This document shows, piece after piece, positions 5,637 through 39,455 of a DNA stretch of 64,000 bases. Source of the stretch: Alphaproteobacteria bacterium (GTDB lineage Bacteria; Pseudomonadota; Alphaproteobacteria; Micropepsales; Micropepsaceae); the NCBI GenBank assembly GCA_947474645.1, contig CANJJD010000004.1:62001-126000 (forward strand), written 5' to 3'. Each line of letters begins with the position of its first letter. The first letter of the stretch is position 1. The notes below the pieces were generated by a model. It was not told the DNA's origin. It was given only the letters and a program-made list of their open reading frames with translations, and made no database searches. A program made the translations under genes and the position numbers.

Positions 5637-7555
5637 AGCGACGCCAGCGCGCGCTTCAAGTCATGCTCACTGAACGGCTTGTTGAGGCGGGGCGTCTTGA
5701 CCTGGATGCCGCCCGGCAATTCCGCATAGCCGGTGGCCAGGATCACCTTCACATGCGGCCAATCGCGGGCGATGGCGTCCATCAACTGGGTGCCGCTCAT
5801 CTTGGGCATGGATTGGTCGGTGATCACCAGGTCGAAATCCTGCCCGGCCAGCAATTCCAGCGCCTCGGCGCCCGATCCCGCCTCCACCGCTTCGTGTCCA
5901 AGATCTTCCAGCATGGCGACGGTGTTGAACAGCACCAGCATGTCGTCATCCACTGCCAGCACCTTGAGCTTGCGGGTGTCGCGCGGCTCCGGCGCTGCGC
6001 CCGGGTCGGATTTGGGCGCGGCATCGGCCACGGCCGCGGGCAGCCAGATTTCCGCGATGGTGCCCTCGCCCGGCTTGCTGAAGATGGCCAGGCGCCCGCC
6101 CATCTGGGCGGCCATGCCATGCACCATGGAAAGCCCCAGGCCCGTGCCCTTGCCGACGCCCTTGGTGGTGAAGAAGGGTTCCGTGGCGCAGGCCAGCGTG
6201 TCTTCATCCATGCCCTCGCCGCTGTCGGTGACCGACAGGCAGACATATTTTCCCGGCGCCAGCCCGCTGCGCAGGTCCACTTTTTCCTCGCGCGCCGCGA
6301 TAGTGATGCGCCCGCCGCCTTTCATGGCGTCGCGGGCATTGACGCAAAGATTGAGCAGCGCCAGCTCCAACTGGTTGTCGTCGGCCACCACCTTGCCCAG
6401 CGCCAGTGGGAACTCGGTGTGGATTTCCACATCCTTGCCCAGGGTGCGCTCCAGCAGGTCGGCCATGCCGCGCACCAGCGCCGCCGCGTCCAGGGGGTGC
6501 ACATCCATGTCCTGCCGGCGCGCGAAAGCCAGCATGCGTTGGGTCAGGACCGCGCCCCGCCGGGCGCCCTGCAGGGCGTTGTCCAGCAGGCGCAATTGGG
6601 CGGGATCGTCCGGCAGCCGCTTGCGCAGCAGTTCCAGGCTGCCCAGCACCGCCATCAACAAATTATTGAAGTCGTGCGCCACCCCGCCGGTCAACTGGCC
6701 CACCGCTTCCATCTTCTGGGACTGGAACAGCGCCTCGCGGGCCTGATCCAGCGTTTCCTGCGCCGCTTTGCGCTCGGTGACGTCGCGGGTGATCTTGGCG
6801 AAGCCCAGCAGCTTGCCCTGGTCGTCGCGGATGGGATCGATGATGACGTGCGACCAGAAGCGGCTGCCGTCCTTGCGCACCCGCCAGCCTTCGGCTTCGA
6901 ACTTGCCTTCATGGGTCGCGGTTTCCAGCGCGCGCTGGGGCTTTCCCGCGCCGCGATCCTCCGGTGTGTAAAATCGGGAGAAATGCTGGCCGATGATCTC
7001 TTCCGGGCTATAGCCCTTGATGCGCGCCGCGCCGGGATTCCAGTTGGTGACGATCCCTTCGGGGCTGAGCATGTAGATGGCATAGTCGGTCACACCCTGG
7101 ATCAGCAGGCGGAATTGCTGCTCGCTGTGGCGCAACGCCTCCTCCGAGGCGCGGCGTTCGGTCAGGTCGCGGGTCACCTTGGCGAAGCCGGTCAGCGTTC
7201 CCGACGAATCGCGAATGGGATCGATGACGACATGCGCCCAGAAGCGGCTGCCATCCTTGCGCAAGCGCCAGCCTTCGGCCTCGAACTTGCCTTCGCGGGC
7301 CGAGGTTTCCAGGGCGCGGGCCGGCAGGCCCGAGGCGCGGTCTTCCTCGGTGTAGAAGCGCGAGAAATGCTGGCCGATGATCTCTTCGGGCTTGTAGCCC
7401 TTGAAGCGTTCCGCCCCGGCGTTCCAGCTCGACACGATGCCGCTGGGATCGAGCATGTAGACGGCATAGTCGGTGATCGCCTCGACCAGGATGCGATAGC
7501 GGGCGCTTTCTTCGGCCGTATAGGCGCGATCTACGGCCAATTGCTTGTTCTTCAT
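5633..7555 (-). CDS. Hybrid sensor histidine kinase (PAS-PAS-HisKA-HATPase-REC)
   Basis: Two PAS domains, GGVAHDFNNLLMAV H-box, GVGKGTGLGLSMVHGM G2 box, REC domain VLAVDDDMLVL...DLVITDQSMP; start at MKNKQLAV. Confidence 0.92.
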   Translation of the reverse strand: MKNKQLAVDRAYTAEESARYRILVEAITDYAVYMLDPSGIVSSWNAGAERFKGYKPEEIIGQHFSRFYTEEDRASGLPARALETSAREGKFEAEGWRLRKDGSRFWAHVVIDPIRDSSGTLTGFAKVTRDLTERRASEEALRHSEQQFRLLIQGVTDYAIYMLSPEGIVTNWNPGAARIKGYSPEEIIGQHFSRFYTPEDRGAGKPQRALETATHEGKFEAEGWRVRKDGSRFWSHVIIDPIRDDQGKLLGFAKITRDVTERKAAQETLDQAREALFQSQKMEAVGQLTGGVAHDFNNLLMAVLGSLELLRKRLPDDPAQLRLLDNALQGARRGAVLTQRMLAFARRQDMDVHPLDAAALVRGMADLLERTLGKDVEIHTEFPLALGKVVADDNQLELALLNLCVNARDAMKGGGRITIAAREEKVDLRSGLAPGKYVCLSVTDSGEGMDEDTLACATEPFFTTKGVGKGTGLGLSMVHGMAAQMGGRLAIFSKPGEGTIAEIWLPAAVADAAPKSDPGAAPEPRDTRKLKVLAVDDDMLVLFNTVAMLEDLGHEAVEAGSGAEALELLAGQDFDLVITDQSMPKMSGTQLMDAIARDWPHVKVILATGYAELPGGIQVKTPRLNKPFSEHDLKRALASL

Positions 7556-7657
7556 GATAATCTTGCCCAACAAGACGGAACGCGGGGCGGCGTAAAAAGT
7601 TCCATAAGCTGTCAAGGTCTTGATATAGTGATATAAACGGCCCAGTTAAAGGACGGC

Positions 7658-8596
7658 ATGAAAGACCCTTATGAAGTCCTTGGCGTAACCAAGAGCGCCA
7701 GCGAGGCCGAGATCAAGAAGGCGTTTCGCGGCCTGGCCAAGAAGCATCATCCCGACAAGCATGCGGGTGACGCCGCCGCGCAGAAGCGCTTCCAGGAAAT
7801 CTCCGGCGCCTATGACATTCTGGGCGACAAGCAGAAGCGCGCCCAGTTCGACTCCGGCGTCATCGGCGCCGACGGCAATCCCAAGGGCTTTGATCCGCGC
7901 GCCGGAGGCGGCTTCCGCCAGGGCAATCCGTTCGGCGGCGGCGCACCGGGCGGCGGCCCCGGCGGTTTTCATTTCAGCTTCGACGACAACCCGGGCGGCC
8001 CGGCGGGCTTTGAGGATATCTTCGCCGACCTGATGGGCGGTGGCCGGCGCGGACGCGGCCAACCGCGCGCCGCCAGGGGCGAGGATTTCGCCGCCGCTGT
8101 GACGGTCAGCTTCGATGAATCCGCTTCCGGCGGCACCCGCCGGGTGGTGCTGCAGAATGGCGAACAGATTGACGTCAAAATTCCCGCAGGCGTGAAGGAC
8201 GGCCAGACCATCCGGGTCAAGGGCCGGGGCGGCGCCGGCCGCGGCGGCACGCCCAATGGCGACATCCTGCTGACCGTTTCGGTGGCGGCGCATCCCTGGA
8301 TGACGCGCGATGGAAACGACATCCGCATGGACCTGCCGGTGACCCTGAAAGAAGCGGCACTGGGCGGCAAGGTGCCGGTGCCGACCCTGACCGGCACGGT
8401 GTCGCTGAGCGTGCCGCCCAATTCCAACACCGGCACGGTGCTGCGGCTGAAGGGCAAGGGCATCGCCGCCAAGGATGCGCCGGGCGATCTGTATGTCCGG
8501 CTGGTCGTCTCGCTGCCCGATAAGCCCGACGAGTCCCTCAAGGCCTTCCTGGAGGGCTGGGGGCACGATTATGACCCCCGCGCAAAGCTGCGATAA
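7658..8596 (+). CDS. J-domain protein (DnaJ/CbpA-like)
   Basis: N-terminal MKDPYEVLGVTKSASEAEIKKAFRGLAKKHHPDKHAGD (HPD), G/F region, DnaJ C-terminal domain. Confidence 0.93.
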   Translation: MKDPYEVLGVTKSASEAEIKKAFRGLAKKHHPDKHAGDAAAQKRFQEISGAYDILGDKQKRAQFDSGVIGADGNPKGFDPRAGGGFRQGNPFGGGAPGGGPGGFHFSFDDNPGGPAGFEDIFADLMGGGRRGRGQPRAARGEDFAAAVTVSFDESASGGTRRVVLQNGEQIDVKIPAGVKDGQTIRVKGRGGAGRGGTPNGDILLTVSVAAHPWMTRDGNDIRMDLPVTLKEAALGGKVPVPTLTGTVSLSVPPNSNTGTVLRLKGKGIAAKDAPGDLYVRLVVSLPDKPDESLKAFLEGWGHDYDPRAKLR

Positions 8597-30871: not shown

Positions 30872-30974
30872 GCGTTTCGTAAAATCCGCCCTCGCCGCTT
30901 TGTGACGGTTGCCACATCCGCTAGTGTCCCGCCGCTCCAGCCGGAGCGGAGAATCTTTGCAGGACTTGGGTGAC

Positions 30975-32963
30975 ATGCGGGCGCTGACCAGACGTTTGAT
31001 GCTTTCCACCACCGCCGCCGGTGTGGCGCTGGCCGCCGCGCCGCTGCACGCGCAACCTGCGACACCACCTGATACCGATTGGCCGACCTATGGCGGCAAT
31101 CTCGCCTATTGGCGCTACAAGGCGCTGGACCAGATCAATGGCGCCAACTTCAACCAGCTTCAGGTCGCCTGGCAGTTCAAGACCGAGAACCTGGGCAGCC
31201 GTCCCGAATTCATCCTGCAATGCACGCCGCTCTTGATCAAAGGGCGGCTGTTCGCCACCGCCGGTTCGCGCCGCGACGTGATTTGCCTCGATCCCGCCAG
31301 CGGCGAGCTGCTCTGGATGTATCGCACCCCCGATGAAGGCCCGCGCGCCACCAACGCACCGCGCCAGTTGTCGGGCCGCGGCGTCGGCTATTGGAGCGAC
31401 GGCGATCAGGAACGCATTCTCTATGTCACCATCGGCTATCAGCTTATCTCGCTGGACGCCAAGACCGGCCTTCCCGATCCCAATTTCGGCACCAGGGGCA
31501 TCGTCGATCTGAAGCTCAACAACGACCAGGAACTGAACCTGGACAGTGCCGATATCGGCCTGCACAGCGCGCCCACCATCGCCAAGGGCGTGGTGATCAT
31601 CGGCGCCGCCCATACCGCCGGCAACACGCCGCGCGTGAAAAACAACGCCAAAGGTTATGTGCGCGGTTTCGACGTCAAGACCGGCAAGCGGCTATGGATA
31701 TTCCACACCATCCCCCTGAAGGGTGAGTTCGGCTATGACACATGGCTGAAGCCCGGCAGCGCGGAAGCGGCGGGCAATGCCGGCGACTGGGCGCAGATTT
31801 CCGCCGACGAGGAACTGGGCCTGGCCTATCTGGGCATCGAGCTGCCCACCGGCGACCAGATGGGCTTCTACCATCCCGGCAACAGCCTGTTCAGCGAAAG
31901 CATCGTGGCGGTGGACATCCTCACCGGCAAGCGCAAATGGCATTACCAGATGATCCATCATGGACTGTGGGACTATGACGTCGCGTGCGCCGCCATCCTG
32001 TGCGACATCCCCCACAACGGAAAAATCGTCAAGGCGCTGGCCCAGCCCACCAAGCAGAGCTTCCTCTATGTCCTGAACCGCGAGACCGGCGAGCCGATCT
32101 GGCCGATTCCGGAGAGGAAAGTGCCCAAGGGCGACGTGCCGGGCGAATGGTATTCCAAAACCCAGCCCATCCCCACCAAGCCGCCGGCGTTCGATCGCCA
32201 GGGCGTCACCACCGACGATTTCATCGACTGGACGCCGGAGCTGCGCCAGAAGGCGCTGGCGGTGGCCAGCCATTACAAGCTGGGGCCGATCTACACCGCG
32301 CCGATCATGGAAAATCCCAAAGGCCCGTTCGGAGTGATCAACCTGCCGGGCTATATCGGCGGCATCAACTGGCCGGGCGGCTCCTATGATCCGGAAACCC
32401 ACACCGTCTTCACCTATTCCCAGACCAACCCGCTGACCATCGGCGGCATCATTCCCAATCCCGAACACAAGATGGGCGCCTTCGATTATGTCCATGCCAA
32501 CCTGCCGCCGCAGAATGGCGTGAAGGTGGGCGACCTGACGGTGGACGGGCTGCCGCTGATCAAGCCGCCTTATGGCCGCATCACCGCCACCAACCTCGCC
32601 ACCGGCACCCAGAGCTGGCAGGTGGCCCATGGCGAGACGCCGGATTTCATCCGCGACCATCCGGCGCTGAAGGGCATCAAGATCCCGCGCACCGGCATGA
32701 TCGGCAAGGTCGGGACGCTGACCACCAAGAGCCTGGTGATCTGCGGCGATCCCCAGACTTATACCGACGAGACCGGACGCAAGGGGGCACGGCTTCGCGC
32801 CTATGACAAGACCAATGGCGAGGAGAAAGGCGCGGTGTTCCTGCCGGCCGAACAGTCAGGCTCGCCCATGACCTATATGTACAAAGGCAAGCAATATATC
32901 CTGCTGGCCATCGGCGGACGCGCCTTCACCAGCGAGTTCATCGCCTTCAAGCTGCCGGCGTAA
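30975..32963 (+). CDS. Exported PQQ-dependent (quinoprotein) dehydrogenase, glucose-dehydrogenase type
   Basis: MRALTRRLMLSTTAAGVALAAAPLHA; DWPTYGGNLAYWRYKALDQINGANFNQLQVAW, GELLWMYRTPDEG, KRKWHYQMIHHGLWDYDVACAAIL. Confidence 0.9.
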   Translation: MRALTRRLMLSTTAAGVALAAAPLHAQPATPPDTDWPTYGGNLAYWRYKALDQINGANFNQLQVAWQFKTENLGSRPEFILQCTPLLIKGRLFATAGSRRDVICLDPASGELLWMYRTPDEGPRATNAPRQLSGRGVGYWSDGDQERILYVTIGYQLISLDAKTGLPDPNFGTRGIVDLKLNNDQELNLDSADIGLHSAPTIAKGVVIIGAAHTAGNTPRVKNNAKGYVRGFDVKTGKRLWIFHTIPLKGEFGYDTWLKPGSAEAAGNAGDWAQISADEELGLAYLGIELPTGDQMGFYHPGNSLFSESIVAVDILTGKRKWHYQMIHHGLWDYDVACAAILCDIPHNGKIVKALAQPTKQSFLYVLNRETGEPIWPIPERKVPKGDVPGEWYSKTQPIPTKPPAFDRQGVTTDDFIDWTPELRQKALAVASHYKLGPIYTAPIMENPKGPFGVINLPGYIGGINWPGGSYDPETHTVFTYSQTNPLTIGGIIPNPEHKMGAFDYVHANLPPQNGVKVGDLTVDGLPLIKPPYGRITATNLATGTQSWQVAHGETPDFIRDHPALKGIKIPRTGMIGKVGTLTTKSLVICGDPQTYTDETGRKGARLRAYDKTNGEEKGAVFLPAEQSGSPMTYMYKGKQYILLAIGGRAFTSEFIAFKLPA

Positions 32964-33013: not shown

Positions 33014-34357
33014 TTACTGGGCCGGTTCCAGCTTGAGCAGTTCGCCTGTCGCCGGCGTGGTTTCGGTGATGGAGGTGCCGCCGCTGTCGGTCACGACATA
33101 GATGGCGCCGTCCGATCCCATCCGCACATCGCGGATGCGTTGCCTGCGCTCGGTCAGCAGGGCTTCTTCCTCGACCACCTTGCCGTTCACCATCTTGAAG
33201 CGGGACAGCATGTGGCCGTTCAGCATGCCGACGAACACGCTGCCCGCCCAGGCCTTGGACTTGCCGGTGTAAAAGGCCAGCCCGCCGGGCGCGGTGGACG
33301 GCGACCAGTAATAGACCGGCTGCTCCATGCCCGCCTTGGCGACTTCGCCTTCGCCGATCGGCGCGCCGCGATAATCAATGCCATGGCTGATGAAGGGCCA
33401 GCCGTAATTGGCGCCCTTCTTGATCAGGTTGAGCTCGTCGCCGCCGCGCGGGCCGTGCTCGACTTCGTACAGGCCGCCATCAGGCGCGAAGGCCAGGCCT
33501 TCGGGACTGCGAAATCCGAGCGCCCAGATTTCCGGCAATGCCCCTGCCTTGCCGATGAAGGGATTGCCCGGCGCCGGCGCGCCGTCCTTGGTGATGCGGA
33601 TCACCTTGCCCAGATGGGTGTCGAGATATTGCGCCACCGGCCAGGGACGCGGCCCCGCATTGTCGCGGTCACCGAGACAGACATAGAGAAAACCATCCGG
33701 ACCGATGGCGATGCGGCCGCCTGTCTTGGTGCCCGCCGCCAATGTCTGGTCGTTCGGCGCGAAGGGCGAGGTCTTGAGCAGCACCTTGACGTTGCGGATG
33801 GTGCCGGCCGCTTCATCCAGCACGGCGCGCGCCACCGCGGTGTTGTAGACCGTCTTGTCCAGATATTCGAAGTAGGTGAAATAGATGGTGTGATTGGTGG
33901 CGAAAGCCGGATCCAGCACAACGTCCAGCAATCCGGTCATCGGGGTGGAGACGTGCAGACCGTCCAACCCCTTCAGCGGCGCGCCGACACCATCCTTGTC
34001 CACGATGCGAAATGCGCCGGGCAGCCGCTCAGTCACCAGCACCTTTCCGTTCGGCAACAGGGCGCTGGCCCAGGCGGCATGCAACTGGTTGGTCAGCACC
34101 GTCACCTTGAAATCGGTGGCATGGTGATAGGGGGCGCGGGTCTGCTGGGGAAATTGGCGCGTATCGGCCTTCTTTTCCGGCGCCCTTGCGTCAATCGGCT
34201 GGCCTTCGACGGCGCCATAGGTCGGCACCCGCGGCAGGCCGCCGGCATTATAGTCCGGCGCCGGACCCGGAGCGCGCGGCTGGGTCGGCGCTTGTGTCTG
34301 GGCGTACAAAGCGGCGGGCAGGCCGGCCAGGGCCAGCACAAGAACAAGGCGTTTCAT
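33014..34357 (-). CDS. PQQ-dependent sugar (aldose) dehydrogenase, soluble GDH-B type
   Basis: LLPNGKVLVTERLPGAFRIVDKDG, FLYVCLGDRDNAGPRPWPVAQYLDTHLGKVIRITKDG, EVEHGPRGGDELNLIKKGANYGWPFISHG. Confidence 0.92.
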   Translation of the reverse strand: MKRLVLVLALAGLPAALYAQTQAPTQPRAPGPAPDYNAGGLPRVPTYGAVEGQPIDARAPEKKADTRQFPQQTRAPYHHATDFKVTVLTNQLHAAWASALLPNGKVLVTERLPGAFRIVDKDGVGAPLKGLDGLHVSTPMTGLLDVVLDPAFATNHTIYFTYFEYLDKTVYNTAVARAVLDEAAGTIRNVKVLLKTSPFAPNDQTLAAGTKTGGRIAIGPDGFLYVCLGDRDNAGPRPWPVAQYLDTHLGKVIRITKDGAPAPGNPFIGKAGALPEIWALGFRSPEGLAFAPDGGLYEVEHGPRGGDELNLIKKGANYGWPFISHGIDYRGAPIGEGEVAKAGMEQPVYYWSPSTAPGGLAFYTGKSKAWAGSVFVGMLNGHMLSRFKMVNGKVVEEEALLTERRQRIRDVRMGSDGAIYVVTDSGGTSITETTPATGELLKLEPAQ

Positions 34358-35739: not shown

Positions 35740-37377
35740 TCAGGGCGTGCCGGGCTTGTAGCCGGGCCCGCGCAGCACCCGCCCGGGTGTTGCGTTGGTG
35801 GGCTTGCTGTCGGCCACAACCGCCTTGCCGTTGACCAGCACCCAGGAGATGCCGGTGGGATACTGGTCCGGCTTGGCATAGGTGGCGGTGTCCTTGACCG
35901 TGTCGGGATTGAACACCACCACGTCCGCCTTCATGCCCTCGCGGATAAGCCCGCGGTCATGCAGGCTCAGCCGGTTGGCTGCCTGGGAGGACAGTTTGCG
36001 CACCGCTTCTTCCAGCGAAATTATGTGCCGTTCGCGCACCACGTCGGACAGGATGCGGGCGTGGCTGCCGAAGGAACGCGGATGCGGGATGCCGAACGAG
36101 GTGTGCACCCCGGCCGGCAGGGCGATGCCGTCCGAACCGATATCCACCCAGGGATACCTGAAGGACTCGGCCACCGCCTGTTCGCGGGCGGGATTGGGCG
36201 GGCCGATATGGAAGCCCTCGGCCTTCTGCTCGACCAGGAAATCCACCATCGCTTCTTCCGGCGAGATGCGGGTGCGATCGGCCACCTGCTGCATGGTGTA
36301 GCCGTCATACTTCAGGTTGGCGGAAGCGAAGTGATAGTCCTTGTACTGGCCGGGATTCTGCTGAAGCTCCTTGACCACGCGGGCGCGGTTGGCCGGGTCC
36401 TTCAGCCGCGCGGTGATGGCGGCGGCGTCACCGACCTGCGCCCATACCGGCAGCAACTGGCGCACATAGGTCCAGCCGATGGTGTAGGGATAGGCGTTGG
36501 CGGTGATGTCCACGCCTTCGGCGCGCGCTTTCTCAATCATCGGCGCGAAGTCGGGATTTCCGGCGATGGTGCCGCCGACATGCAAAATCTCCACCGGGAT
36601 ATGGGCGCCGCGCGCGATGGCGATGGTTTCCTCCAGGCCGGACAGGCCGGGACCGGGGCGCATATGCACTGTGTAGATGCCGCCATATTCGGCCGCGACC
36701 TTGGCCAGCTCGATCATCTGGGCGGTGTTGAAAAAGGAGTTTGGCAAGTAATAGAGGCCGGCGGAAAGGCCGGCTGCCCCCTGCTCCATGCCCTGGCGGA
36801 TCAGGGCCTTGATCCGGTCCATCTCGGCCGGTGTCGGCTGGCGATCCTCATACCCCATCGCCGAGGCGCGCACCTGGCCCGCACCGACATAGGATACGAC
36901 ATTGGGGCCGATGCCCTTCTTCTCCAGGTAATCGAAGAACCCGCCCAGGGTGGTCCAGGTCCGCTTGACCGGCGGCGCCAGCATCATGGGATCGTCCACC
37001 GCCGGGCCCAGCACCGGACCGGCCGACAGATGCTCGCCCATCAGTTCGGTGGTGATGCCTTGCGTCACCTTGGAAAGACCGCGGCCGTCAAAGGCCAGGC
37101 CGAATTCCGAATGGCTGTGCATGTCGATGAAGCCCGGCGCCACCACCTGGCCGGTGGCGTCGACGGTCTTCTTCGCCCTTACCGGAGCGCGGCCGACATA
37201 GACGATCTTGTCGCCGGTGATGGCGACATCGGCCTGCATGCGCGGGCCGCCGCTGCCGTCCACCACCTGGCCGTTCTTGATCAGAAGGTCTACCTCGCCC
37301 GCAGGCGCGGCAAAACTTGCCAGCACCGGAACGGAAGCGAACAAAAGCGTGGCGGCGAGAAATTTGCGTAAAATCAT
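35740..37377 (-). CDS. Exported N-acyl-D-amino-acid deacylase / D-aminoacylase family amidohydrolase
   Basis: Signal peptide; DLLIKNGQVVDGSGGPRMQADVAITGDKIVYVG, VVAPGFIDMHSHSEFGL, QGITTELMGEHLSAGP, DADVVVFNPDTVKDTATY-like C-terminus. Confidence 0.88.
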   Translation of the reverse strand: MILRKFLAATLLFASVPVLASFAAPAGEVDLLIKNGQVVDGSGGPRMQADVAITGDKIVYVGRAPVRAKKTVDATGQVVAPGFIDMHSHSEFGLAFDGRGLSKVTQGITTELMGEHLSAGPVLGPAVDDPMMLAPPVKRTWTTLGGFFDYLEKKGIGPNVVSYVGAGQVRASAMGYEDRQPTPAEMDRIKALIRQGMEQGAAGLSAGLYYLPNSFFNTAQMIELAKVAAEYGGIYTVHMRPGPGLSGLEETIAIARGAHIPVEILHVGGTIAGNPDFAPMIEKARAEGVDITANAYPYTIGWTYVRQLLPVWAQVGDAAAITARLKDPANRARVVKELQQNPGQYKDYHFASANLKYDGYTMQQVADRTRISPEEAMVDFLVEQKAEGFHIGPPNPAREQAVAESFRYPWVDIGSDGIALPAGVHTSFGIPHPRSFGSHARILSDVVRERHIISLEEAVRKLSSQAANRLSLHDRGLIREGMKADVVVFNPDTVKDTATYAKPDQYPTGISWVLVNGKAVVADSKPTNATPGRVLRGPGYKPGTP

Positions 37378-37389
37378 GACAGTCCCCTG

Positions 37390-37818
37390 TTATCGCGCCT
37401 TGGCGCGTTTTTTTGGCGGCATGGAATCGAATGTGATGGCCTTCTGGTCGCTGGCGGAGGTGCCCAGTTCCTTTGTCCCCGCCGGAAAGCCGTTGCTCTT
37501 GAGAATGAAGGCAGTGATGTCGGCATTGACGGCCGGGCTGAGGGAGCCGGGACGGCCCAGCGGCATCGCCTGGCTGATATACTCCACCAGCACATCCAGG
37601 GTGGTGCCCGACCAATAGGGCACAAAGCGTCCCACCAGCGGCGGAATCTCGAAAGTGCCGGAAAGGTTCGCGCCATGGCAGCGGCCGCAATTCTGCTGGT
37701 AGGAGGTGGCGCCGCGCGCCGCCTGGTCTTCTGTGTAGGCGCCGTCCCACACGGAACGCGCCTGGGCGCCTTGCGCCGCCAGCAGAAAACCAACACCCAG
37801 AATGATTTTGCGCATCAT
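37390..37818 (-). CDS. Exported c-type cytochrome
   Basis: Signal peptide; RGATSYQQNCGRCHGANLSGTFEIPPLVG (CxxCH). Confidence 0.9.
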   Translation of the reverse strand: MMRKIILGVGFLLAAQGAQARSVWDGAYTEDQAARGATSYQQNCGRCHGANLSGTFEIPPLVGRFVPYWSGTTLDVLVEYISQAMPLGRPGSLSPAVNADITAFILKSNGFPAGTKELGTSASDQKAITFDSMPPKKRAKAR

Positions 37819-37826
37819 GTTGCCCT

Positions 37827-39077
37827 TTATGCCTGTTTCACGGAGAAGCGGGCGAACAGATCTTCGATCACCTTCACGGCGCGATCGGATTCGGCACGGT
37901 TCACGCTCTCATCGCTGTTGTTGTAGCCCTTGAGCTCGCCATTCTCGAGCGCGATCACCATGATGCCGTCGCTCTTGGACAGAATCTGCACATTGCGATA
38001 GGTCAGGCCGTAATTGACCTCGGGCTGCGGGATCAGCCAGCCGGTCTGGCCCCGCACCGGCACCATGGCCTTGTCCTTCCACCAGTCGCGCGCCGCCATG
38101 CCGGGGCAGTTGATCACCACCTTCTGCGGCAGGTGGCCCAGCTCGGACGGGGAATGGAAATTGCGCATCACGATCTTGCCGCCCGCCGCGAAGAACTGGT
38201 TGGTGAGCAGATGGCCATATTCGGTGAAGTTGAAGAACAGGTTGGTCGAGCGCGAGGCATACTTGACCGGAAACGGGTTGATGTCCGGCGTGAGCTGCTG
38301 GGGAAACGACGTAATATCCCGGATGCGGTCATTGTAGCGGGCGAAATCCTCGCCATGGGTGGGCGCTCCCGCCCAGGTCGGCGGCGGCAGCGGCATCACC
38401 GTGGCGTCCACCGGCTGCGGCGTGCCGCGCGGCGCATCGGTCAGGTAATAATGGTCGCTGAAGGCGACCGGGTTGCCGGCGATGCCGATATATTGGCGCA
38501 AGGTCTTCCAGGAGGAGCGCGCCATGATTTCCCAGGTCTGGCCGAAATTGGCCGGGGCTTCCGACGTCAGGGCGATGCGCGAATCCGGGGTCCAGGCGCC
38601 GTTGGCCCGCACCGAACGGGTGCGCGGCAACAGCTCGCGTGTATAGATGGTCACCTGGGCGCCGGCGCGCTGGGCGGTGATGGCCGAGGTCAGGCCGATG
38701 ATGCCGCAGCCGATGACCGCGATTTCCTTGGGACTGCGGGACATGGCCTTTTGCACCGCCATGTCGGCCGATCCCCAGGACAGCGACCAGCCCGAGCCGC
38801 CATGGCCGTAATTGTGCACCACCATGGCATCGCCGATCTGCTCCACGTCCAGGTTGGGACCTTTGGTGCGGAAGGGGCGCAGGCAAACTTTAAAGTCGAA
38901 AAAGCGGTCGGCACGGGCGCGGACCGGCGCCAGAACGGGCGGACGGTCCATCAGGGGGACGGTGGAAACCGGCTGGGGCGCCGCACCCGGCGCGGCACCA
39001 GGGGTGGCGGCGCAACCGCCCAGCCCCATGACCCCGCCCAGCGCGAGCGAATTCTTCAACAGATGCCGCCGGTCCAT
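37827..39077 (-). CDS. Tat-type/lipoprotein FAD-dependent oxidoreductase, D-amino-acid oxidase family
   Basis: MDRRHLLKNSLALGGVMGLGGCAATPG (RR motif and lipobox-like Cys); KEIAVIGCGIIGLTSAITAQRAGAQVTIYTRE; VINCPGMAARDWWKDKAMVPVRGQTGWL. Confidence 0.85.
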   Translation of the reverse strand: MDRRHLLKNSLALGGVMGLGGCAATPGAAPGAAPQPVSTVPLMDRPPVLAPVRARADRFFDFKVCLRPFRTKGPNLDVEQIGDAMVVHNYGHGGSGWSLSWGSADMAVQKAMSRSPKEIAVIGCGIIGLTSAITAQRAGAQVTIYTRELLPRTRSVRANGAWTPDSRIALTSEAPANFGQTWEIMARSSWKTLRQYIGIAGNPVAFSDHYYLTDAPRGTPQPVDATVMPLPPPTWAGAPTHGEDFARYNDRIRDITSFPQQLTPDINPFPVKYASRSTNLFFNFTEYGHLLTNQFFAAGGKIVMRNFHSPSELGHLPQKVVINCPGMAARDWWKDKAMVPVRGQTGWLIPQPEVNYGLTYRNVQILSKSDGIMVIALENGELKGYNNSDESVNRAESDRAVKVIEDLFARFSVKQA

Positions 39078-39278: not shown

Positions 39279-39455
39279 ATGAGCGTTAAGGGACAGATCA
39301 AGGAAGCCGCCGGTTACGTCAAGGAAGAGGCGTATGAGCACGGCAAGTCCGCTGAAAGCCAGCAGAAGGCCCAGGAAGGCCGCAACCTGCGCAATGAAGG
39401 CCGGATCGAAGACGGCAAGGCGCCGAAGACCAGCGAGCCGGGCACCAGCCACTAA
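39279..39455 (+). CDS. Small hydrophilic CsbD-like/stress-type protein (58 aa)
   Basis: MSVKGQIKEAAGYVKEEAYEHGKSAESQQKAQEGRNLRNEGRIEDGKAPKTSEPGTSH*; not in supplied ORF track. Confidence 0.6.
   Translation: MSVKGQIKEAAGYVKEEAYEHGKSAESQQKAQEGRNLRNEGRIEDGKAPKTSEPGTSH

Follow-up and report, generated by a model that had tools for sequence, protein, structure and literature searches.

A circularly permuted D-amino-acid oxidase-type flavoprotein encoded with a cytochrome c and an aminoacylase-like amidohydrolase in a Micropepsaceae genome

A DNA window of 64,000 nucleotides, the whole stretch that was analysed, was found to encode an FAD protein that is a circularly permuted homologue of the eukaryotic-type D-amino-acid and D-aspartate oxidases (DAAO and DASPO). 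What forms the C-terminal segment of a conventional DAAO here precedes the FAD-binding Rossmann motif. The gene is followed by those of a cytochrome c and an amidohydrolase, and at a probability of about 0.55 we read the cluster as an envelope module for amide hydrolysis and amino-acid oxidation that would feed cytochrome c. Natural circular permutation of a DAAO-type catalytic FAD enzyme is apparently unreported: searches of open-access literature for circular permutation in connection with DAAO, FAD enzymes or the order of domains brought up nothing relevant, and a family-profile search of the PDB returned no solved structure in the permuted order. In annotation pipelines such proteins appear as 'FAD-dependent oxidoreductase', and a colinear domain model gives a score to only a part of the chain. 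The permuted family offers a natural experiment on the folding and export of the DAAO fold and on the determinants of oxidase versus dehydrogenase activity.

Three co-directional minus-strand genes lying 8 and 12 bp apart had been described in the initial annotation, and the open reading frames, all intact, confirmed this layout. Its reading of the cluster as an exported route for N-acyl-D-amino acids was partly supported, and the anomaly in segment order, the circular permutation, had gone unnoticed. The features are as follows (window coordinates).

37827..39077, minus strand: FAD protein, circularly permuted DAAO/DASPO-type oxidoreductase, 416 aa (Pfam, phmmer, family profile, structure model)
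39012..39077, minus strand: Tat-like RRHLLK signal and lipobox LGGC, putative, FAD protein residues 1-22 (sequence read by eye; pattern in 42 of 69 family members)
38745..38906, minus strand: residues 58-111 (CLRPFR ... VVHNYGHGGSGWSLSWGSA), the C-terminal segment of conventional DAAO, here ahead of the Rossmann motif (phmmer, family profile; Arg67 in 69/69, YGHxGxG in 69/69)
38634..38729, minus strand: GxGxxG segment that binds FAD, residues 117-148; at the N-terminus of a conventional DAAO (Pfam, profile alignment)
37390..37818, minus strand: single-haem cytochrome c with export-like N-terminus, 142 aa (CxxCH and Pfam; paralogues include PQQ-dehydrogenase haem domains)
37675..37689, minus strand: CGRCH haem-binding motif, cytochrome residues 44-48 (sequence)
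35740..37377, minus strand: amidohydrolase of the D-aminoacylase / N-acyl-D-amino-acid deacylase group with export-like N-terminus, 545 aa (Pfam, alignment)
37111..37119, minus strand: HxH metal motif of the amidohydrolase, His87-x-His89 (alignment to 3gip, 1m7j, 9g5m)

The order in the FAD protein is RPxR, with the substrate arginine, then YGHGGxG, then the GxGxxG FAD motif. When solved structures were searched with phmmer, residues 60-110 aligned to 321-371 of the DAAO 7ct4 and residues 116-345 to 23-239, and human DASPO and the mammalian DAAOs gave the identical block swap. A rotated sequence was built from residues 112-411 followed by residues 43-111. It matched Pfam DAO without a break from position 2 to 351 of 353 (72.3 bits) and covered 7ct4 26-370 as a single domain; the natural-order sequence covered Pfam DAO 2-297 (61.7 bits), and a control rotation cut at residue 250 broke the match into two pieces. 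The profile of the 69-member family aligned to human DAAO as two swapped blocks (81.2 and 42.1 bits) and, once rotated, as a single block that spans residues 2-328 and scores 128.4 bits; the human sequence was checked for its length and for residues 224, 228, 283 and 313. On the profile alignment, the new ends lie between a helix and a strand near human DAAO residues 265-270.

The permuted order is constant within the family. The link from YGHGGxG to GxGxxG measures 25-30 residues in 67 of the 69 members, and YGHxGxG is located at 0.10-0.31 of the protein length in all of them. Exactly one copy was counted in 69/69, which rules out a leftover second copy of the moved segment at the C-terminus and indicates a permutation and not a duplication. 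The conventional colinear order, with GxGxxG near the N-terminus and RPxR and YGHGG near the C-terminus, is not that of the permuted family; as it is common to other DAO enzymes, we infer that the permuted order is the derived state. An assembly error, a frameshift or chance similarity is practically ruled out as its origin, since RPxR, YGHxGxG and GxGxxG recur at constant spacing in 67/69 members from many genomes, some of them one-contig assemblies, and the window copy and most other members are single open frames. Conservation of the order across the family already refutes an artefact.

An AlphaFold2 model of the FAD protein, built from a 14-sequence alignment, had a pTM of 0.82 and a mean pLDDT of 77, with values of 89-96 in most blocks of the moved segment and of the Rossmann strand next to it; AlphaFold2 on the single sequence gave a pLDDT of 31. 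The top 33 Foldseek matches of the model were all DAAO or DASPO. The best, human DASPO 6rkf (E 9e-12), had a TM of 0.57, which understates the likeness because Foldseek pairs residues in sequence order only and the moved segment is thus unpairable. Strong family-profile scores in the PDB were restricted to DAAO/DASPO structures (E 4e-36 to 3e-22), and the best of these, together with the rotated-profile score, supports homology over the full catalytic core. The initial assignment to the DAO family is supported (Pfam DAO 60.8 bits; nearest solved relatives D-amino-acid and D-aspartate oxidases). Glycine oxidase reached E 1e-4 with the same profile and other amine oxidases were also far below DAAO/DASPO; on these scores the FAD protein was judged to be neither a glycine oxidase nor a member of another DAO subfamily. 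The D-amino-acid dehydrogenase DadA, which would carry out a comparable reaction and use a respiratory acceptor, was rejected as well on its scores (25.6 bits with PRK00711 and 27.7 with PRK12409, against cut-offs of 383 and 494). The match was limited to the FAD motif, and DadA is in the conventional order.

With DAAO (EC 1.4.3.3; human 2du8, Rasamsonia 7ct4) and DASPO (EC 1.4.3.1; human 6rkf) the FAD protein has in common the whole core, the predicted fold, GxGxxG, the GxRPxR-type arginine and YGHGGxG. It differs from them in the N-terminal placement of the C-terminal segment, the apparent Tat-like/lipoprotein signal, the cytochrome c partner and, on the alignment, the residue opposite Tyr228. 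By alignment the carboxylate arginine, Arg67, corresponds to human DAAO Arg283, and the Arg67-Pro68 pair was present in 69/69 members; His88, Tyr90-Gly91-His92, Gly94 and Gly96 are also invariant. Tyr360 is opposite human Tyr224, and Gln364, at a variable position, is opposite human Tyr228. A survey of bacterial DAAOs lists GxRPxR and YGHGGxG as bacterial DAAO motifs, describes the active-site tyrosine as not conserved and the Arg-Pro pair as also present in glycine oxidases, and does not mention permutation (PMC9844085).

Export of all three proteins, as initially annotated, appears probable from their N-termini, read by eye. The FAD protein begins MDRRHLLKNSLALGGVMGLGGC, with an RR motif and then an LGGC lipobox, and the cytochrome c (MMRKIILGVGFLLAAQGAQA) and the amidohydrolase (MILRKFLAATLLFASVPVLASFA) carry what look like ordinary Sec-like signals. 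Across the family the predicted signal is usually Tat-like and often lipoprotein-like: RR/RK was found near the N-terminus in 62/69 members and RR/RK with a lipobox in 42/69. The members from Rhizobium, Bradyrhizobium and Nonomuraea are without a signal.

In the window's order 32 of 96 genomes gave family matches; among genomes sampled more widely the figures were 18 of 387 for the class and 24 of 398 for the phylum, three of the 24 being from outside the class. The permuted family is present in about 5% of the Alphaproteobacteria sampled, and in a few other bacteria. Plasmid records with members came from Kozakia, Niveispirillum, Rhizobium, Bradyrhizobium and Nonomuraea (Actinomycetota). The source genome holds four paralogues, the other three being 64-69% identical to the window copy. 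No phage match for the permuted family was found in the phage collections searched; the IMG/VR contigs L108, L109 and L110 encode distant permuted DAAOs and may be host DNA and not viral.

Gene neighbourhoods were compared using gene calls from a codon-position caller and tblastn in the GC-rich loci. At the seven loci with the closest orthologues (76-89% identity) the cytochrome c lies directly behind the flavoenzyme in 7/7 and the amidohydrolase is present in 6/7 (not in L005). The triplet, whose conservation the initial annotation had made a check, is kept among close relatives; most of the wider family has no cytochrome c or deacylase gene alongside, and the more distant members have neither partner. 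The cytochrome also lies directly behind the flavoenzyme in L008, L009, paralogue C7 and Kozakia. An aminoacylase-like neighbour was found in the window, L001-L004, L006-L008 and C22; that of L008 is divergent, as is that of paralogue C22 (67%), where the cytochrome was not found. Around paralogue C7 (L092:7669-10327) the source genome has another such cluster, in which the permuted DAAO and cytochrome c genes are followed by one of the FmdA_AmdA acetamidase/formamidase family. Paralogue C1 has neither cytochrome nor amide hydrolase at its locus. The plasmid-borne copy of Kozakia baliensis (49% identity) has its cytochrome 5 bp downstream, and its locus also encodes two S12-type hydrolases, an S9 peptidase and a DadA-like enzyme that scores 361 bits against a cut-off of 383. 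The tree places the Kozakia protein as sister to the clade of the window copy, so the cytochrome pairing was probably ancestral to that clade and was then lost in places.

Other members have other neighbours. In Rhizobium and Nonomuraea the permuted gene is followed by a TPP enzyme nearest to indole/phenylpyruvate decarboxylases, below cut-off, and a neighbour resembling 2-oxo-acid decarboxylases fits a 2-oxo acid product. Loci with this pairing are L088:5485-9711, L089:5372-9699 and L087:6920-9673, and they possibly encode a route from amino acid to aldehyde. On rhizobial plasmids a berberine-bridge-type flavoprotein gene stands ahead of the permuted DAAO. In a genome of the window's genus (L102:7861-9600) a tyrosinase-family gene is convergent with the permuted DAAO. 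At L002:3428-4924 the amidohydrolase and an LLM-family gene are separated by a tannase/feruloyl-esterase gene, and in L004 additional DNA is present at the corresponding position (6887-8510); both are absent from the window.

The amidohydrolase matched Pfam Amidohydro_3 (77.2 bits) and is homologous along its length to D-aminoacylase and N-acyl-D-glutamate deacylase (1m7j, 3gip; E about 1e-55), with HxH, two further histidines and the aspartate of the metal site kept. It differs from these enzymes in its predicted export, in the replacement of the metal-ligand cysteine (NCG by GEH) and in its score with NCBIfam PRK09061, which was below the subfamily cut-off (232 against 340 bits). The replaced residue is the metal ligand Cys96 of Alcaligenes D-aminoacylase. 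The initial name of N-acyl-D-amino-acid deacylase is borne out as far as an aminoacylase-like amidohydrolase, and weakened by the missing cysteine and the low score.

In the proposed module the predicted exported hydrolase would act on an N-acyl or amide form and free amino acids, probably of the D type, the putatively Tat-exported and lipid-anchored flavoenzyme would oxidise them to 2-oxo acids, and the co-encoded cytochrome c would pass the electrons on to the respiratory chain. Such a module, provided that the pairing with the cytochrome is a working one, would add a periplasmic D-amino-acid route, one that may make no H2O2. The permutation, the homology to DAAO/DASPO, the conserved carboxylate arginine and FAD motifs and the recurring linkage of cytochrome c and amide hydrolase genes to the flavoenzyme are observed, whereas we infer the export, the D-specificity, the substrate of the hydrolase and the use of cytochrome c rather than O2. 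The variable Tyr228 equivalent and the amidohydrolase, with its lost cysteine and low PRK09061 score, count against the module, and the tyrosinase and a metallo-beta-lactamase fold beside some family members do not point to D-amino acids. A wider proposal, that an undescribed bacterial family has turned a permuted DAAO fold into an exported flavoenzyme which, in the clade of the window and the Kozakia plasmid, serves as a cytochrome-c-linked D-amino-acid dehydrogenase outside the cytoplasm with dedicated amide hydrolases, is offered tentatively, at slightly short of even odds.

The cytochrome is, as annotated, a CxxCH protein of class I type (CGRCH; Pfam Cytochrome_CBB3 40.2 bits, cut-off 27), and its relatives in the source genome include the N-terminal haem domains of PQQ dehydrogenases (33-42%), a kinship that supports an electron-accepting role. 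Quinohaemoprotein PQQ dehydrogenases have such a domain fused, whereas the cluster cytochrome is a separate protein beside the flavoenzyme. The flavoenzyme might instead be a true oxidase that uses O2 and releases H2O2 in the envelope, the cytochrome serving, say, peroxide removal or nearby PQQ dehydrogenases. This holds an appreciable minority chance: the nearest solved relatives are O2-using oxidases, most family members are without a cytochrome c neighbour, so that the family's usual acceptor may be O2 or a quinone, and a PQQ sugar-dehydrogenase-like gene 1.4 kb downstream of the triplet (33014-34357, minus strand) is syntenic in L004 and L006. However, no match to that gene was found in L007, C7 or Kozakia, where the cytochrome stays with the flavoenzyme, which makes the PQQ gene a weaker candidate partner; the cytochrome is also packed 8 bp behind the flavoenzyme gene and resembles haem domains fused to dehydrogenases. 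A different amine as substrate (an L-amino acid, glycine, an N-methylated amino acid or an opine), supplied by the amidohydrolase, is improbable. The Arg-Pro pair of glycine oxidases (PMC9844085) would allow it, as would relatives in the amidohydrolase group that act on other substrates, such as the carbohydrate de-N-acetylase 9kb3, but the DAAO/DASPO scores (1e-36) lie far above those of glycine oxidase (1e-4) or other amine oxidases, and the Kozakia copy is accompanied by the DadA-like enzyme and S12-type hydrolases.

Around the triplet, a further PQQ-type dehydrogenase-like gene was seen at 30909-32963 (plus strand), in addition to the one at 33014-34357. No promoter-like site stands out in the cluster region. 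Immediately upstream of the triplet, on the opposite strand, is a small ORF of 58 aa (39279-39455, plus strand) that resembles CsbD-type stress proteins.
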